64,000 bases of DNA from Saccharopolyspora rhizosphaerae (GTDB lineage Bacteria > Actinomycetota > Actinomycetes > Mycobacteriales > Pseudonocardiaceae), in assembly GCF_003931915.1 (NCBI RefSeq), contig NZ_RSAA01000004.1, positions 62,001 to 126,000 of the forward strand, in the 5' to 3' direction. A model generated the notes under the pieces. That model ran no database searches and was not told the DNA's origin. It saw only the letters and a program-made list of their open reading frames with translations. Of the stretch, positions 13,332 to 55,177 are shown piece after piece; positions within the stretch are counted from its first letter, which is position 1; each line of letters begins with the position of its first letter. The position numbers were made by a program, and so were the translations under genes.

Positions 13332-14375
13332 GTGCGGATCGCGTGCATCGACGGAGATGGCATCGGACCTGAGCTGGTGGACAGCGCCCGGGAGGTGCTG
13401 GCCGCTGCCGCCGAGGCGGACGGGCTGACCGTGGAGTTCGGCTCGGAGTCCGCAGGGGCCGGGACCTACCTGCGGACCGGGGAGCCGCTCGCGGCGGGAG
13501 CCCTGGAGCGGTTCCGCACCGAGTACGACGCGGTGCTGAAGGGCCCGGTCGGCCTGCCGGACGTGCGCAAGCCCGACGGGACCGAGGCCGGCGTGCTCGG
13601 CGGGGTGCTGCGGAACGGGCTCGACACCTACGCCAACGTGAGGCCGGTGCGACTGCTGCCCGGCGTCCGCGAGGCCGCGGGCCCGATCGACTACGTGATC
13701 GTGCGGGAGAACACCGAGGGTCTGTACCTCTCGCGCGGCAGCGGGGTGCGCAACGACCGAGCGGCCAGCGACCAGCTGCTGATGACCCGGGTCGGCGTCG
13801 AGCGGATCGTGCGGTTCGCCTTCGAGACCGCGCGCGCCCGCACCGGCGCGCCCGCGGATGGTGTCCGCCGGGTGACCTGCGTGGACAAGAGCAACGTGCT
13901 GCGCAGCTTCGCGTTCTTCCGGGACATCTTCCACGAGGTCGCGGCCGACTACCCCGACGTCGAAGCCGACCACCGCTACACCGACGCCGCCGCGCACGAC
14001 CTGGTGGCCAACCCGGGGCACTTCGACGTGCTGGTCACCGAGAACTTCGTCGGCGACATGCTCAGCGACCTCGGCGCGGCCACCGTCGGCGGGCTCGGCA
14101 CGTGCCCGGCCGGCAACATCGGCGAGCGCACCGCCTACTTCGAACCCGTGCACGGCAGTGCGCCCTCGATCGCCGGGCAGGACCTGGCCAACCCGACCTC
14201 GCAGCTGCTCACCGCGGCGATGCTGCTCGACCACGTGGGCGCGACCGGGACGGCGCGGCGCATCACCGGCGCTGTCGAAGCCGCCTACGCGGAGGGTGCC
14301 GTCCGGCTCAACCCCCACGGCACCCCCACCTGCGGCACGAAGGGCGTGACCGCCGCGGTCCTCAGCCGCTTGTGA
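13332..14375 (+). CDS. Isocitrate/isopropylmalate dehydrogenase family protein
   Basis: A 347-residue NAD(P)-dependent beta-decarboxylating dehydrogenase. Family marks are IACIDGDGIGPELVDSA, LKGPVGLPDVR, the VRENTEGLYLSRGSG substrate loop, CVDKSNVLRSF (catalytic lysine), VTENFVGDMLSDLGAATVGGLG and FEPVHGSAPSIAGQ plus ANPTSQLL. It oxidises a 2-hydroxy acid such as isocitrate, 3-isopropylmalate, tartrate or homoisocitrate; substrate choice cannot be fixed from sequence. The NENLYF-type ENTEGLY and absence of leu genes nearby leave it open. GTG start at 13332 with a GGAG-type site. Its stop overlaps the convergent ribM stop by 14 bases. Confidence 0.9.
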   Translation: MRIACIDGDGIGPELVDSAREVLAAAAEADGLTVEFGSESAGAGTYLRTGEPLAAGALERFRTEYDAVLKGPVGLPDVRKPDGTEAGVLGGVLRNGLDTYANVRPVRLLPGVREAAGPIDYVIVRENTEGLYLSRGSGVRNDRAASDQLLMTRVGVERIVRFAFETARARTGAPADGVRRVTCVDKSNVLRSFAFFRDIFHEVAADYPDVEADHRYTDAAAHDLVANPGHFDVLVTENFVGDMLSDLGAATVGGLGTCPAGNIGERTAYFEPVHGSAPSIAGQDLANPTSQLLTAAMLLDHVGATGTARRITGAVEAAYAEGAVRLNPHGTPTCGTKGVTAAVLSRL

Positions 14376-15009
14376 CGGTGGTGGCGAACTCGCGCTGGTA
14401 CCGAGCCATGCGGTTCCAGCTCCACCAGCCGTGCACGACCAGGGCGGCGAAGACGAGGTAGATGGCGGCGCTGAAGTACAAGCCGGAAGCGATCTGCAGC
14501 GGAACGCCGACCGCGTCCACCGCGAGCCACACCAGCCAGAACTCGACCAGGCCGCGGCCTTGCGCCCAGAAGGCGACCACGGTGCCGATGAAGATCCACG
14601 CGTCCGGCCACGGTGCCCACGAAGCGTCCAGGGCGCTGAGCAGCAGGGCGAACGCCGAGGTGCCCGCAGCCAGGACCGCGACGAGCACCAGCCGCTCGAC
14701 CCCGGTGGACGTGCGGATCGCCACGCCGTAGACGGGGTCGCTGCGGCGGTTCCAGGCCCACCAGCCGTAGACCGAGATCAGCAGGATGACCACTTGCCGG
14801 ATCGCCAGCCCGCCGAGGTGCGCGGAGGCGTAGACGGCGAACAGCAGCACCGTCGCCGACACCTGCACCGGCCACGTCGCCACCCAGCGCCGTTGCGCGA
14901 GGAAGACCACCGCGAGCGCGCAGAGCTGGCCGACGAGTTCGGCCCAGGAGATCTTCTGGCCCAGCACGGTGATCCCGTTGCCGAGCAGCCATTCCGCCAC
15001 CGCTTGCAC
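14362..15009 (-). CDS. ribM: RibM/PnuX riboflavin transporter (PnuC family)
   Basis: A 215-residue membrane protein with about seven helices. The PnuC-family features VYGWWAWNRRSDPVYG, an aromatic WxW pair repeated at HGWWSWNRM, and IFIGTVVAFWAQGRGLVEFWLVW are present. PnuC proteins usually carry nicotinamide riboside, but the FMN riboswitch about 100 bases upstream shows that this one belongs with RibM (PnuX), a riboflavin facilitator known in Corynebacterium and Streptomyces. The GTG at 15009 has a GGAGGAG site seven bases upstream. It converges on, and overlaps by 14 bases, the dehydrogenase gene. Regulation would be by FMN: high FMN shuts the gene down. Confidence 0.9.
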   Translation of the reverse strand: MQAVAEWLLGNGITVLGQKISWAELVGQLCALAVVFLAQRRWVATWPVQVSATVLLFAVYASAHLGGLAIRQVVILLISVYGWWAWNRRSDPVYGVAIRTSTGVERLVLVAVLAAGTSAFALLLSALDASWAPWPDAWIFIGTVVAFWAQGRGLVEFWLVWLAVDAVGVPLQIASGLYFSAAIYLVFAALVVHGWWSWNRMARYQREFATTVTSG

Positions 15010-15107
15010 GCCCGCTCCTCCCGCCGGGTGCGCCGGGGTGTGCGCGGGCGACCGCTGTCTCGCGAAAGCGGGCGTGGTGCACCCGGTTTCGCGCGTGGCG
15101 GTGGCCC

Positions 15108-15230
15108 GTGCGCGCCTCTCATCCGGACTGTGACCGTCGGTCCCGGAGTTCCACCGGATCGGCCGGCTCGACGACGAGCCGGTTCGCGGACTTTCACCGC
15201 CGGTTCGGAGTTCCACCGACCCCGGAGCGC
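15108..15230 (-). promoter_or_regulatory. FMN riboswitch (RFN element)
   Basis: Read on the minus strand, the conserved RFN blocks occur in order: GGGGTCGGTGGAACTCCGAA, CCGGCGGTGAAAGTCCGCGA, a variable CCGGCTCG..CGAGCCGG arm, GGTGGAACTCCGGGACCGA, CGGTCACAGTCCGGATGAGA and closing GG. These match the RFN aptamer of riboflavin genes almost base for base. The ribM start lies about 100 bases downstream, with CGCGAAA..TTTCGCG and GC-rich repeats in between that could form the expression platform; initiation versus termination control is not resolved. Nothing else is supported between 15231 and 15390. Confidence 0.95.
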
Positions 15231-15390
15231 ACGATTTCGTACTGCACTGCGCAACATCCTGCGCGTGTCGATCTGTTCCGCGCCGGGTACGTGCGTCGGA
15301 TCACAACTCGCCGACACCGATGGCCGATCGAACACCCGTACCACGATCGCCTAGACTTGATCGTCGGAGATGGGCGAGGGGGCATGCCAG

Positions 15391-15618
15391 ATGAACGACA
15401 CTGACCGCGCCATCCTCGACTTCGAGCGGGAGCACTGGAAGTACCAGGGCAACAAGGAGCGCGTGATCCAGGAGCGCTTCGGCTTCTCCCCGAACCGCTA
15501 CTACCAGCGCCTGAACCGGCTGCTGGACGAGCCGGAAGCGTTAGCCCAGCAGCCCGCCCTGGTGAAGCGCCTGCTCAACCGGCGCGACCAACGCGCACAA
15601 CGCCGCCGCGCTGTCTAG
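15391..15618 (+). CDS. DUF3263 family protein
   Basis: A 75-residue protein beginning MNDTDRAILDFEREHWKYQG and continuing RVIQERFGFSPNRYYQRLNRLLD, which is the DUF3263 signature found throughout actinobacteria. The helix-turn-helix-like spacing and basic C-terminus (RLLNRRDQRAQRRR) suggest nucleic-acid binding, though this is unproved. No catalytic residues or membrane segments are seen. The ATG at 15391 is the conserved family start; a GTG/ATG further up would add unconserved residues. It is transcribed away from the riboswitch and ends just before a composite repeat. Confidence 0.88.
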   Translation: MNDTDRAILDFEREHWKYQGNKERVIQERFGFSPNRYYQRLNRLLDEPEALAQQPALVKRLLNRRDQRAQRRRAV

Positions 15619-15680
15619 TTCCAGCAGCTCTGTGGACTCCGTGCGCCGCTCTTGAACATTCCCCGCACCCGGCGTCACGG

Positions 15681-15796
15681 CCTCGCCACGAAGCCGCTCA
15701 GAACCTGCGGCGGCGCCAGCCTGAAGTCCCACCTTCGAACTTCGCGCGAACTTGGAAGGAGAACTTCAGCCCTCCCACCTCGCGCGAAGTTCGACG
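15681..15796 (+). repeat. Composite intergenic repeat, copy A
   Basis: Begins CCTCGCCACGAAGCCGCTCA and GAACCTGC, then carries TCGAACTTCGCGCGA and, about 40 bases on, its exact inverse TCGCGCGAAGTTCGA. It lies in the 338-base gap between the convergent DUF3263 and amidase genes; the rest of that gap shows nothing recognisable. Four related copies occur at 25678, 34435, 47524 and 54910. Confidence 0.8.
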
Positions 15797-15956
15797 CAGC
15801 GCGGAGCGCCTACGGACGTCCCGCCGCGTTCCACACCCGCCTTGAACCTCCGGTCCAGCCGTCCAGTGCTGGGTCCTGGCGGCACCGCTGATGTCCGGGC
15901 GGAGGCCACCGCGCCACTCAGGTCCCGCAACCGTCCCGCTGAGCGGAGCGATCACC

Positions 15957-25631: not shown

Positions 25632-25677
25632 CCAGCAGCCCGGCGCAGCCGCCGTTCAACCCCCGCGCCGGGCGGCA

Positions 25678-25797
25678 GCGTTCGAACTTCGCGCGGATGT
25701 CGAGGCTCGAAGTTCCCCGTCGAGGTTCGCGCGAAGTTCGAAGGGCCCCAACGGGGCTGCCGCGAGTCCTCGAGCGGCTGCGTGGCGAGTGCGCCGT
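25678..25797 (-). repeat. Composite intergenic repeat, copy B (best inverted repeat)
   Basis: TTCGAACTTCGCGCG at 25681-25695 and its perfect inverse CGCGCGAAGTTCGAA at 25728-25742 bound a 32-base loop that itself holds TCGAAGTTCC. The head, on the minus strand, reads GCACTCGCCACGCAGCCGCT. It lies in the 247-base gap between convergent genes. Confidence 0.85.
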
Positions 25798-25878
25798 GCG
25801 ACATGCCCTCTGGAGCGGCGCGCGGTGTCCACGGAACCGCTCGAGTCGCGCCACTGGCACCGCTGGGCGGGACGGAGC

Positions 25879-34410: not shown

Positions 34411-34434
34411 GGGCGCGGCCCGGCGGCGTCCCGG

Positions 34435-34552
34435 CGCACTCGCCACGAAGGTTGCTCGAGAACCTGCCAGCTGAGCCCACCCTCGAAGTTCGCGCGAAGT
34501 TCGACGCCCCGGGCTCGGCTCCCGGTCAAACCTCGCGCGAAGTTCGAGGGCA
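34435..34552 (+). repeat. Composite intergenic repeat, copy C
   Basis: Head GCACTCGCCACGAAGGTTGC then GAGAACCTGCC, followed by CCCTCGAAGTTCGCGCGA and the inverse TCGCGCGAAGTTCGAGGG; the arms match over 17 of 19 positions. It is 25 bases after the methyltransferase stop and, unlike the other copies, lies between tandem genes. Confidence 0.8.
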
Positions 34553-35104
34553 CCTGCGCGGCGCGGGGCTTCGAGGCACGGGGACTCCCCCGCCTTCTCG
34601 AACAGCTCCTCCCAAGCCGAAGCGTCCGACGACCTGCCGCGCGTCCACACCGGACAGACGCGGCACCCGGCCGCGCGCGGCGGCGGCGAAGCACGCCCGC
34701 CTTCTCCGCGGGGCGGCGACCAGATCCTCTGCGAACCCCGTGCCCGGACGGTCACGACCACCCCGCGGGAACGGCACTGGTTTTCCCGTTGCCGCCCGAC
34801 ACGCGCGGGCCTCGGAGGAGGCTTCCTCCTGATCGAGGCGCACAACCCCTGGTCACAGTCATGAGACGTACATCACCCCGGTGGGAAGCGGAGCTGGCCG
34901 AGCAGACCGGGACGGGCTGCGTGTAAGGTAGGTGCTGGTCGTTGTTTTTCTGGGTTCGTGTTCTTGCACGCTCGCAGGATTCTGATGCGAGCGAGCTGCT
35001 GTCCCCGTGGTTGTAGCTGGTATAGCCGCCGTTCGAGATCTCCGGCCCGGGCTCCCACGAAGTGTGAGGGCCCGTCACACGCTCCAGCTCCTAAGGAGAC
35101 ACAC
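34553..35104 (+). other. Long gene-free leader before the cold-shock gene
   Basis: About 550 bases separate repeat copy C from the cold-shock start. No ORF is credible. A TAAGGT at 34924 could be a -10 element, which would give a 5' untranslated region of about 175 bases, long as is usual for cold-shock mRNAs. Its T-rich GTTGTTTTTCT and TGCTGTCCCC stretches may fold as a thermosensor, unproved. Confidence 0.4.
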
Positions 35105-46530: not shown

Positions 46531-47424
46531 GTGAAGCCGGACACCAGCACCCTCGCCGCCGACTTCGACCGGCACCGCAGCCGCCTCATCGGGCTGGGCT
46601 ACCGGTTGACCGGCCGGCTCGCCGACGCCGAGGACGCGGTGCAGGACGCCTGGCTGCGGCTCACCGACGCCGATCCCGCCGAGATCCGCGACCTGGGGAG
46701 CTGGCTGACCACGGTGGTGAGCCGGCTGTGCCTGGACAAGATGCGCTCGGCGGCCGTGCGCCGGGAGAGCTACGTCGGGCCGTGGCTGCCCGAACCCCTG
46801 GTGAGCTCGGTGGATTCCGACCCGGGTGACATCGTCGCCGGGCAGGACGACCTGCGGATGGCGGCGATGCGGGTGCTGCACGAGCTGCCGCCGGACCAGC
46901 GGCTCGCGCTGGTGCTGCACGACGGCTTCGACGTGCCTTTCGCCGAGATCGCCGAGGTGCTGGGCTGCAGCGTCCCGTCCGCCCGCCAGCACGCCTCCCG
47001 GGCGCGCAAGGTGATGAACGAGGCCGCCCCTCCGGAGCGGGCGCCGCTGCCCGAGCAGCAGCGAGCGCTGGAGGACTTCCTGACCGCGGTGGCGGCCAAG
47101 GACCTCGCCGCCCTCACCCGCCTGCTCAACCCGACCGCTGCCGTCTACGGCGACAGCGGCGGCAAGGCCCGCACCGCGCGCCGTCCGGTGGTCGGTGCCG
47201 AGAAGGTCGCGCGGTTCGCCGTCGGGCTCATCGAGAGGTACGGCACCGAGCTCGTCGGGTCGGTGCGTCCGGTGCTGGTCAACGGTGACCTGGGCCTGCT
47301 GTTCCCGGGCACCCCGGAAACCGCCCCGCGGGTGTTCTCGCTGGCCGTCCGCGACGGACGGCCGGCAGAGCTGTTCGACATCGTCAACCCCGACAAGCTC
47401 ACCCACGTCGAGTTCAAGTGGTGA
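46531..47424 (+). CDS. sigJ: ECF41 sigma factor with C-terminal SnoaL-like domain (SigJ type)
   Basis: A 297-residue sigma factor. Sigma-2 is HRSRLIGLGYRLTGRLADAE then DAVQDAWLRL, sigma-4 is LPPDQRLALVLHDGFDVPFA then AEVLGCSVPSARQHASRARK. The ECF41 hallmarks are all present: the linker WLPEPL at about residue 92, a DSGGKARTARRP version of the DGGGK motif, and NPDKL near the C-terminus in a SnoaL-like domain. In ECF41 this extension replaces a separate anti-sigma factor. GTG start at 46531 with CAGAAT seven bases upstream. A CMD-family gene lies beyond repeat D, the classic ECF41 partner. Confidence 0.92.
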   Translation: MKPDTSTLAADFDRHRSRLIGLGYRLTGRLADAEDAVQDAWLRLTDADPAEIRDLGSWLTTVVSRLCLDKMRSAAVRRESYVGPWLPEPLVSSVDSDPGDIVAGQDDLRMAAMRVLHELPPDQRLALVLHDGFDVPFAEIAEVLGCSVPSARQHASRARKVMNEAAPPERAPLPEQQRALEDFLTAVAAKDLAALTRLLNPTAAVYGDSGGKARTARRPVVGAEKVARFAVGLIERYGTELVGSVRPVLVNGDLGLLFPGTPETAPRVFSLAVRDGRPAELFDIVNPDKLTHVEFKW

Positions 47425-47429
47425 TGTCC

Positions 47430-47498
47430 GGGGAGGTGCGGCTGTCCCCGGGGAGGTGTGGCTGTTCAGGTGCCGCTGTCCTCGCGCGGTGTGGCTGT
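47430..47498 (+). repeat. Four GGTGNNGCTGT units just after sigJ
   Basis: GGGGAGGTGCGGCTGT at 47430 and GGGGAGGTGTGGCTGT at 47450 are a 16-base direct repeat; shorter relatives GGTGCCGCTGT at 47469 and GGTGTGGCTGT at 47488 continue it with spacings of 20, 15 and 19 bases. It begins five bases after the sigJ stop. Confidence 0.65.
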
Positions 47499-47523
47499 CC
47501 GAGGTACCTGCACCACGCAGGAG

Positions 47524-47653
47524 CCATTGGAACTTCGCGCGAGATTCGAGGGCCCGAAGTTCCCTCGCCGAACTTCTCGAGGATTGTGAACGGTGGGGCC
47601 TCAGCCCAGCCCGCACCGCGGCAGGTTCTGTGCGGCCTCGTGGCGAGCACGCC
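47524..47653 (-). repeat. Composite intergenic repeat, copy D
   Basis: On the minus strand it starts GTGCTCGCCACGAGGCCGCA then CAGAACCTGCCGCGGTGC, followed by GGCCCTCGAATCTCGCGCGA and AGTTCC. The arms of the inverted repeat are less regular than in copy B. It lies in the convergent gap between sigJ and the CMD gene. Confidence 0.8.
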
Positions 47654-47655
47654 GT

Positions 47656-47747
47656 GACGCCGCGTGGCAGGCAGAGCTGACGCCGCGTGGCGGGCGGTCT
47701 TGAAGCCGCGTGGCGGGCGGTCTTGAAGCCGCGTGGCGGTCGGTCCG
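47656..47747 (+). repeat. Four tandem 23-bp repeats
   Basis: Units of GACGCCGCGTGGCNGGCNGN followed by three variable bases start at 47656, 47679, 47702 and 47725. The middle two are identical except for one base, and all four share GCCGCGTGGC. They abut repeat copy D and leave about 90 bases of unremarkable sequence before the CMD gene. Confidence 0.85.
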
Positions 47748-54400: not shown

Positions 54401-54822
54401 CCACCGGCCAGGAGCCCACTGTCGGCGTCCCGGGACTGCGGGCCACCAAGCAGCGCGCTGCGGTGGCGCAGCTGCTCGACCGGGTCGACGACTTCCGCTC
54501 AGCGCAGGAGCTGCACGAGGAGCTGCGGCGGCAGGGCGAGGGGATCGGTTTGACGACCGTCTACCGGACGCTGCAGACCCTCGCCGACGCCGGCGAGGTC
54601 GACGTGCTGCGCACGCCCTCCGGCGAAGCGGTCTACCGGCGCTGCTCGAGCCACCACCACCACCACCTGCTGTGCCGGCACTGCGGTCGCACCGTCGAGG
54701 TCGCCGACCCGCCGGTGGAGAACTGGGCTGAGCGCATCGGTCAGGAGCACGGCTTCTCCGACGTCAGCCACACGGTCGAGATCATCGGCACCTGCCCGGA
54801 CTGCTCAGCCAAGGGCCACTGA
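54397..54822 (+). CDS. zur: Zur, zinc uptake regulator (Fur family)
   Basis: A 141-residue Fur-family protein with the winged helix LRATKQRAAVAQLLDRVDDF, GIGLTTVYRTLQTLADAGEV, the regulatory SSHHHHHLLCRHCGRTVEV and structural cysteines CxxC at RHCG-type and CPDC (TCPDCSAKGH) positions. It represses zinc uptake when zinc is plentiful. The gene overlaps smtB, so both zinc sensors are made from one transcript. No Zur box was recognised in the window. The stop precedes repeat copy E by about 90 bases. Confidence 0.93.
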   Translation: MTTGQEPTVGVPGLRATKQRAAVAQLLDRVDDFRSAQELHEELRRQGEGIGLTTVYRTLQTLADAGEVDVLRTPSGEAVYRRCSSHHHHHLLCRHCGRTVEVADPPVENWAERIGQEHGFSDVSHTVEIIGTCPDCSAKGH

Positions 54823-54909
54823 ACTCCTCAGGTGCTCGCCCTGCATGGCGGCGCCTGAGCGACTCCGGGCGGCGCCGCTCCTCGAGCACGGTATGCACGG
54901 CGTCGCGAC

Positions 54910-55100
54910 GTGCTCGCCACGCATCCGCTCAGAACCCGCCGCGGTGCCGGCTCAGTCCCACACCAGGAGCAGCGGCTCCCGCCACCCCAGGCCCCGTCGA
55001 ACTCGCGCGAAGTTCGACGGGGTTCTTCAGGCTTCACCACTCTCGAGGAGTTCGAGGCGGGAAGTTCCGGGTCGAAGTTCTCGCGAGGTTCGGACGGGGT
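54910..55100 (+). repeat. Composite intergenic repeat, copy E, longest
   Basis: Head GTGCTCGCCACGCATCCGCT and CAGAACCCGCCGCGGTGC, then CCCCGTCGAACT and its exact inverse AGTTCGACGGGG around CGCGCGA (54992-55022), a 12-bp hairpin followed by TTCTTC, and a second half with TCGAAGTTCTCGCGAGGTTC. It lies in the 355-base gap between the convergent zur and TIGR03943 genes; nothing else is seen there. Confidence 0.85.
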
Positions 55101-55177
55101 TCACGGCGCGGGGGCCGGAGGCGGTGACTCCGGCGCCGTGCTGAGTGCGCTTCAGCGCACGCCGTGCTGAGGGCGCC

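Follow-up and report, generated by a model that had tools for sequence, protein, structure and literature searches.

A REP-like palindrome doublet joined to a folded dispersed repeat in Saccharopolyspora rhizosphaerae

Composite repeats in the analysed region

The window, a 64,000 nt stretch of the Saccharopolyspora rhizosphaerae genome (the host genome), contains five copies of a small intergenic element, labelled A to E, whose positions and orientations on re-examination were as originally predicted. Four (A, B, D and E) lie between convergent genes and C between tandem genes, again as previously described. The crude gene caller gave this arrangement for A, B, C and E and wrongly called D tandem; the gap holding D is taken as convergent because a protein with sigma-70 domains is encoded in a plus-strand frame ending at 47424, which also supports the sigma factor earlier named there. 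The other gene names were checked in part: the gene to the left of A matched the nucleoid-associated protein NapA below the cut-off, the genes scanned at B had no match in the family scan, and those around E were scanned in part.

The copies had been read as one composite inverted repeat. They are composite, but not a single unit: head and palindromes are separate and belong to two independent repeat families, a chimera that the original prediction missed. In the first family, P, the unit is a pair of palindromes rather than a single inverted repeat, with doublets spaced at 38 bp in A and B and at 43 bp in C, one clear and one decayed palindrome in D, and three decayed arms in E. The second, H, is a larger folded repeat of which the head (CTCGCCACG..GCCGCTC..GAACCTGC) forms part; the sequence CTCGCCACGnnGCCGCTC, described as shared by all five copies, is present in A, B, D and E with zero or one mismatch and is degenerate in C. 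The features, with scores from a profile HMM, a covariance model (CM) or a P model whose entries count both strands, are as follows.

15605..15735, plus strand: copy A, H shortened at both ends (CM 15605-15720, 33.8 bits, E 5e-6)
15623-15735, plus strand: copy A, H by profile HMM (59.8 bits; copy A is itself in the profile)
15733..15796, no strand: copy A, P doublet (palindromes 15735-15756 and 15773-15794, spacing 38; 57.7 bits, copy in model)
15795..15835, plus strand: copy A, tail after P (by eye, unscored; among the less clear tails)
25749..25865, minus strand: copy B, H shortened at its 3′ end (CM 41.7 bits, E 9e-8)
25680..25743, no strand: copy B, P doublet (palindromes 25682-25703 and 25720-25741, spacing 38; 65.9 bits, copy in model)
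34424..34477, plus strand: copy C, remains of the 3′ half of H (profile 17.8 and 17.0 bits; missed by CM)
34481..34549, no strand: copy C, P doublet with spacing 43 (46.9 bits)
47605..47693, minus strand: copy D, remains of the 3′ half of H (profile 42.0 bits at 47666-47605; copy D is in the profile)
47633-47693, minus strand: copy D, CM match to H (weak, E 0.18)
47526..47591, no strand: copy D, P doublet with one arm decayed (27.9 bits)
54818..54991, plus strand: copy E, nearly full-length H (CM 73.7 bits, E 1e-14; copy E is in the model)
54995..55095, no strand: copy E, P array of three decayed arms (42.9 bits)
25640-25681 (minus), 34548-34575 (plus), 47500-47527 (minus) and 55094-55125 (plus): other tails (by eye, unscored)

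The tails of several copies resemble, by eye and unscored, a second, diverged 3′ module of H (CTGCGCGGCGCGGGG..AGCGGCTTCGCCGC). Minisatellites flank copy D on both sides (47655-47745 and 47428-47498; a 23 bp unit repeated 4.0 times, and 20 and 34 bp units repeated 1.9 times), and a distant search of a plasmid collection with this copy returned no match. Elsewhere in the window an FMN riboswitch (15107-15233, minus strand, 92.4 bits) lies just upstream of a PnuC-like gene (14362-15009, minus strand; match below the family cut-off), a combination that would fit a riboflavin transporter.

The sequence GAACTTCGCGCGA, allowing up to two mismatches, matches the window 19 times against a shuffled mean of 3.76, a number reached in none of 100 shuffles, and has 169 exact copies (83+86) in the whole 5.82 Mb genome, where the reversed pattern has none. 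Five copies was too low a count, there being 74 P clusters in the examined part of the genome alone, and both the window shuffles and the genome counts with reversed controls place the repeats far above chance frequency. Outside the palindromes conservation is strong, namely that of H.

The palindrome doublet

P is a pair of 22 bp palindromes (TCGAACTTCGCGCGAAGTTCGA), usually 38 bp apart from start to start and separated by a variable 16 nt spacer. Searches with the 22-mer, allowing two free positions and up to two mismatches, found 235 palindrome sites in the host genome, 173 in S. endophytica, 28 in S. dendranthemae, three in genome G063, one in G025 and none in the remaining 17 of the 22 genus genomes; the reversed control found none in any of the 22. 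An exact 18-mer of the P core was absent from all 149 other family genomes sampled, its reversed control occurring once, in G105, while a 14-mer core was present in eight of 150 family genomes and five of 46 genera, three of these eight genomes, including the host, having a single site. The commonest spacing between neighbouring sites was 38 bp, with 34 such pairs in the host genome and 71 in S. endophytica, as plain counts. Host clusters comprised 34 single, 34 double and six larger ones, such that 40 of 74 had two or more arms, as did 70 of 83 in S. endophytica, up to a maximum of four arms per cluster. An interpretation as CRISPR arrays was rejected, given this maximum and the consensus that the spacers share. 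At one host locus, L009, a simple tandem array of GCGGCTTC/GCAGCTTC adjoins a P copy below position 1456.

Both S. endophytica and S. dendranthemae loci were taken by exact palindrome match from among the matches listed. Across 54 doublets of S. endophytica the arms are near-invariant (1.6-2.0 bits; partly ascertained through exact matching), the 16 nt spacer varies around a weak palindromic consensus (0.37-1.22 bits per position), and the flank consensus consists only of AT before and AT after. Singlets were slightly better conserved than doublets in the host genome, at loci ascertained by exact half-site (mean mismatches 1.50 and 2.04, p 0.04); the corresponding means in S. endophytica were 0.54 and 0.38 (p 0.22). 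Stable hairpins are predicted for the doublets: the S. endophytica type has a z score of -9.7, and three of the window copies score between -5.0 and -6.0.

Loci in G155, G153, G151, G163 and G145 carry doublets built on the same inner core, mostly ATTTCGCGCGAAAT, with outer arms that differ and stay symmetric: GTCA..TGAC at 38 bp in G155 and G153, and GGCG..CGCC, GCCG..CGGC or GTCG..CGAC at 41-42 bp in G151, G163 and G145 and also in G153. A model favouring paired arms found 26 sites in other species, of which 92% have arm position 10 paired and 100% position 8, the shuffled figures being 36% and 69%, respectively. Across 143 host sites, a set at up to five mismatches that may include some chance strings, the arms pair no better than shuffled ones and the changes are mostly one-sided; the host arms thus look like the products of decay from a palindromic master.

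Some of these properties might be expected if P were an array of sites resembling operators and bound by a symmetric protein, either a chromosome organiser or a regulator, with the 38 bp spacing reflecting protein-protein contact. A resemblance of the palindromes to known operators such as LexA boxes is conceivable. S. endophytica combines exact spacing and near-invariant arms with variable spacers, both arms change symmetrically between species, and old P loci are shared between species. However, the doublets of G151, G163 and G145 are 41-42 rather than 38 bp apart and their arms vary from copy to copy with symmetry kept, the two closest relatives of the host have zero and one P sites, and P is mostly found at the 3′ ends of genes rather than at promoters. 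Such a function is regarded as improbable.

The folded repeat

H is a folded element of about 180 nt, the 3′ half of which is the previously described head. It was first noticed in the orthologous gaps of relatives, in the absence of P, and then found widely by searches with a profile built from window copies A, B, D and E and three early host loci. The predicted fold has a long stem at its centre, an AAC/AAC internal loop and two hairpins, a small one of TGTATGCCAATACA and one at the 3′ end, the latter having compensatory variants. As predicted on 23 copies, it has double changes at 16 of 38 pairs; in an alignment of 25 matches fitted to the model these rise to 18 of 38, against a shuffled mean of 8.4, and 66 cells are changed on both sides, against 16.5 in shuffles, of which none of 500 reached 66. 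Sliding the partner strand by one to three columns reduced the covariation score from 0.251 to 0.057 or below.

Counted as lower bounds, since 150, 26 or nine candidates per genome were scored, H has at least 127 copies in the host genome, at least 69 in G025 and at least 150 in S. endophytica, and was found in at least 26 of 100 Pseudonocardiaceae genomes, spanning 12 of 46 genera. Among 295 further genomes of the class, including at least one from the same family, none matched when nine candidates were scored in each. At two host loci, L202 and L205, H is followed by an apparent second copy of its own 3′ module (GCACCTGCGGCGGTGCGGGCTGAGTCCC).

The covarying helices, and the compensatory variants of the 3′ hairpin, make it conceivable that H is a family of transcribed structured RNAs, with P forming the 3′ part in the host genome, either a small RNA or the RNA component of a mobile system, although hairpins formed in DNA would give the same signal. 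At the Rfam gathering score no family matched at the window copies, the only matches in the window being the FMN riboswitch and three tRNAs, and none was found at eight loci with an intact H. The copy number is also very high, and truncated copies are present in the window. Nor is there a clear orientation bias relative to host genes: of 41 selected near-full-length copies, 17 lie between convergent genes and one between divergent genes, and those in tandem gaps are divided into 15 on the same strand and eight on the opposite one. An RNA family is regarded as distinctly improbable.

Association of the two repeats

A match to H of at least 14 bits lies within 300 nt of 21 of 71 host P clusters, compared with one of 156 random windows; these clusters, like those used for location, were counted after dropping duplicates and clusters near stretch edges. 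The 21 include four copies of the original prediction, and two of the H copies each serve two clusters; copy E, whose arms have four or more mismatches, is outside the 71. The 3′ end of H points towards P in 20 of the 21 cases, in 12 of which it is within 22 nt. Among loci taken after the H profile was built, H adjoins 14 of 46 P clusters, against none of 112 controls. Many copies have, by eye, a similar junction, H..GGTGCCGGCTGAGTCCC..CCGT-P-ACGG.., and several have a tail like a second H 3′ module. P is nonetheless not tied to H, because 50 of the 71 clusters have no H at 14 bits; in S. endophytica H is found beside none of 69 P clusters, and in nine of 375 random windows. P and H are independent repeat families.

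Location relative to genes

P is concentrated between convergent genes, occupying such gaps in 50 of 74 host clusters against 7 of 100 other gaps (Fisher 8e-18) and in 48 of 79 S. endophytica clusters, with four 'edge' cases left out, against 19 of 228 (Fisher 5e-20). Divergent gaps account for just three of 74 and three of 79 clusters, respectively. H, too, lies at gene 3′ ends, judged from the 41 selected near-full-length copies. The comparison gaps were of 60-600 nt in the same stretches, a size limit not applied to the P gaps, and genes were called by a crude GC-frame method that misses some, the median P gap in the host genome being 607 nt.

This distribution, after stop codons and nearly absent from divergent gaps, fits the suggestion made originally of a dedicated terminator, here extended to P, alone or in the chimera, serving under selection as a bidirectional terminator or mRNA 3′-end stabiliser for convergent genes. 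The stability of the P hairpins is in keeping with such a role, as is the way in which outer arm bases in other species differ from copy to copy yet pair, at sites found by the pairing-rewarding model. By contrast, there is no T run after the hairpins of the 54 S. endophytica doublets, a terminator needs no single sequence in more than 100 places, the 143 host sites have no excess of pairing-preserving change, and avoidance of promoters is also expected from the purging of mobile DNA. Taken with the evidence from orthologous gaps below, selection for such a role seems rather unlikely.

Inheritance and orthologous gaps

By two proteins, the closest genus members to the host are G156 and G025 (96-97% identity), although the first protein separates them only narrowly from S. 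dendranthemae and S. endophytica. With no P site in G156 and one in G025, P must either have expanded in the host genome or been lost from these relatives. Eight of 11 S. dendranthemae P loci, all picked by exact match, share a gap with a P locus of S. endophytica, indicating that many P loci are old and vertically inherited; in five of these eight, S. dendranthemae has a single palindrome and S. endophytica two. Four of 21 host P loci are common to S. endophytica or S. dendranthemae. The shared loci are nearly pristine in S. endophytica and more changed in S. dendranthemae, as if still maintained only in the former, a difference that exact-match sampling may in part explain.

Both flanking genes were traceable for the gaps of copies A, B, D and E, all four of which hold H and P in the host; copy C, for which the left flank only was used, was outside this comparison. 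No P of the host type was found in 31 orthologous gaps from up to ten relatives, two of which have one P-like palindrome of another type, at two and five mismatches. An apparent P in the S. endophytica gap orthologous to copy B was rejected as a coding match with four mismatches. H, at 14 bits or more, is present in six of the 31, twice as a fragment, and the shortest of the others is 8 nt. Species differ in whether H occupies gaps D and E, and in gap E two species have H in opposite orientations. In the G154 gap orthologous to copy A (L145) there is an unrelated near-palindrome doublet, GCAGTTTCAACTGAAACTGC / GCAGTTTCAATTGAAACTGC, about 41 bp apart, its layout as in P and its sequence different.

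Comparison of S. endophytica with S. dendranthemae covered the 19 of 86 S. endophytica clusters with both flanks in the S. dendranthemae stretches, many of which were selected for P. Read by eye, the gaps without P in S. dendranthemae measure 6-7 nt (two cases) or 59 nt, or contain something else: another long palindrome in two cases and an H-like string in one. One different long palindrome, with CCCAGTTTTAGTCCAAACTGAGCC and its complement, fills one gap (orthologous to L107; S. dendranthemae loci L211, L140 and L064), and parts of it adjoin H copies in two other gaps. The presence of another long palindrome instead of P in two gaps counts in favour of a dedicated terminator; conversely, several orthologous gaps in relatives measure only 8-22 nt, too short for any hairpin, which counts against a dedicated terminator.

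Divergence of the flanks, in shared and empty gaps alike, prevented P boundaries from being read, and no clean pair of empty and filled sites with a target duplication was found in the gaps compared. Of the 41 selected near-full-length H copies, CTAG, the stop-codon string that convergent genes share, occurs within 60 nt of both ends in five, of the left end in 11 and of the right end in eight, the expectation being about 0.016 per side. The differing occupancy by H and the presence of CTAG near its ends suggest, but do not prove, insertion.

Relationship to known repeat families

MITEs are short, non-coding, dispersed and hairpin-forming, as is H, which sometimes also has CTAG near both ends; for H, however, neither consistent terminal inverted repeats nor a target duplication was established, nor a parent insertion sequence. 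The partner module of a BIME is a short linker, whereas that of P is an element of about 180 nt with a covarying fold. The chimera otherwise resembles BIMEs, which are mosaics of regularly spaced REPs (PMC2817692, which also covers RAYT-linked REPs), in its regularly spaced palindromes, composite structure and high copy number.

REPINs are short palindromes over-represented as extragenic doublets, with a spacer less conserved than the arms, species-specific amplification and a spacing of 71 bp, the doublet folding as a hairpin (PMC3116915). P is similar in its excess of doublets, the lower conservation of its spacer, its hairpin folding and its species-specific amplification, but differs in having perfect-palindrome arms, a spacing of 38-42 rather than 71 bp, a second folded repeat joined to it, and doublets no more conserved than singlets. 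CGTC REPs have 8-9 bp stems, 4-5 nt loops and no dedicated transposase, and can form dimers whose spacer keeps its length while varying in sequence (PMC3733652). P likewise forms dimers with spacers of variable sequence, yet has no conserved unpaired tag: neither GTAG nor CGTC is present unpaired in the flank consensus of the 54 S. endophytica doublets, and where palindromes of other species begin with CGTC it is paired. The main text of PMC3733652 has none of the words Actinobacteria, Saccharopolyspora, Amycolatopsis or Streptomyces; the paper notes that some REP-like families, in M. tuberculosis and others, lack conserved terminal motifs. As regards intrinsic terminators, P has the hairpin but not the U run, judged from the flanks of the same 54 doublets.

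A link to RAYT (Y1) transposases was unsupported: Y1 genes are present in nine of 22 genus members without tracking P, and S. dendranthemae (G150) and G145 have P-type sites and no Y1 match. The one Y1 transposase gene of the host lies in a 3.3 kb locus without P. Neither of the two Y1 loci inspected, in the host and S. endophytica, contains P at up to five mismatches, that of S. endophytica having one string at six.

Top-ranked results of topical literature searches included no description of P or H, and literal strings matched unrelated work only. REPINs and tagged REPs are the nearest systems. P is rated as a variant within the REP/REPIN kind, whereas H is classed as a dispersed repeat with structure, of uncertain type and with no description in the literature searched. 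Of the identities originally listed, the best supported are a REP-like one for P and a structured, possibly MITE-like one for H.

Origin and significance of the chimera

The chimeric structure, copy number, folding potential, 3′-end location and lineage-specific abundance of these repeats are best explained, with a probability of about 0.6, by a REP-like hairpin doublet and a structured mobile repeat that spread as a chimera and are tolerated at the 3′ ends of genes. Each copy is a chimera of two non-coding dispersed repeats, in which P, a REP-like doublet of two perfect or near-perfect palindromes at fixed spacing, could fold into hairpins in RNA or single-stranded DNA. In the host lineage P came to lie at the 3′ part of H and the joint element was copied to many loci, as is evident from its constant order and orientation and similar junction. 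Both are likely to be small mobile elements depending on an enzyme encoded elsewhere; no such enzyme was identified, the Y1 genes of the 22 genus members not following P. Most copies would persist downstream of stop codons, in convergent gaps, being passively tolerated there as largely harmless; as a side effect, their hairpins may mark 3′ ends or terminate transcription both ways. Decaying mobile DNA would be expected to have less clean arms than those of S. endophytica, which counts against this explanation.

A bolder alternative is that H is an undescribed, still active structured mobile class of the Pseudonocardiaceae, recognised by its folded shape and not by its sequence, which picks up interchangeable 3′ hairpin modules, P among them. 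The symmetric arm changes from species to species would then track an enzyme reading shape or dyad, and insertion would target the joint stop codons of convergent genes, supplying them with two-way terminators. This is considered unlikely.

These findings add to an actinomycete group a tagless REP-like doublet system, with no transposase found beside P at the two loci inspected, as well as a folded repeat of more than 100 copies in at least two genomes that is unlisted in Rfam. The joined repeats naturally record the combination and spread of small hairpin elements, and their arms, being species-specific yet symmetric, make it testable whether shape or sequence is what is recognised.
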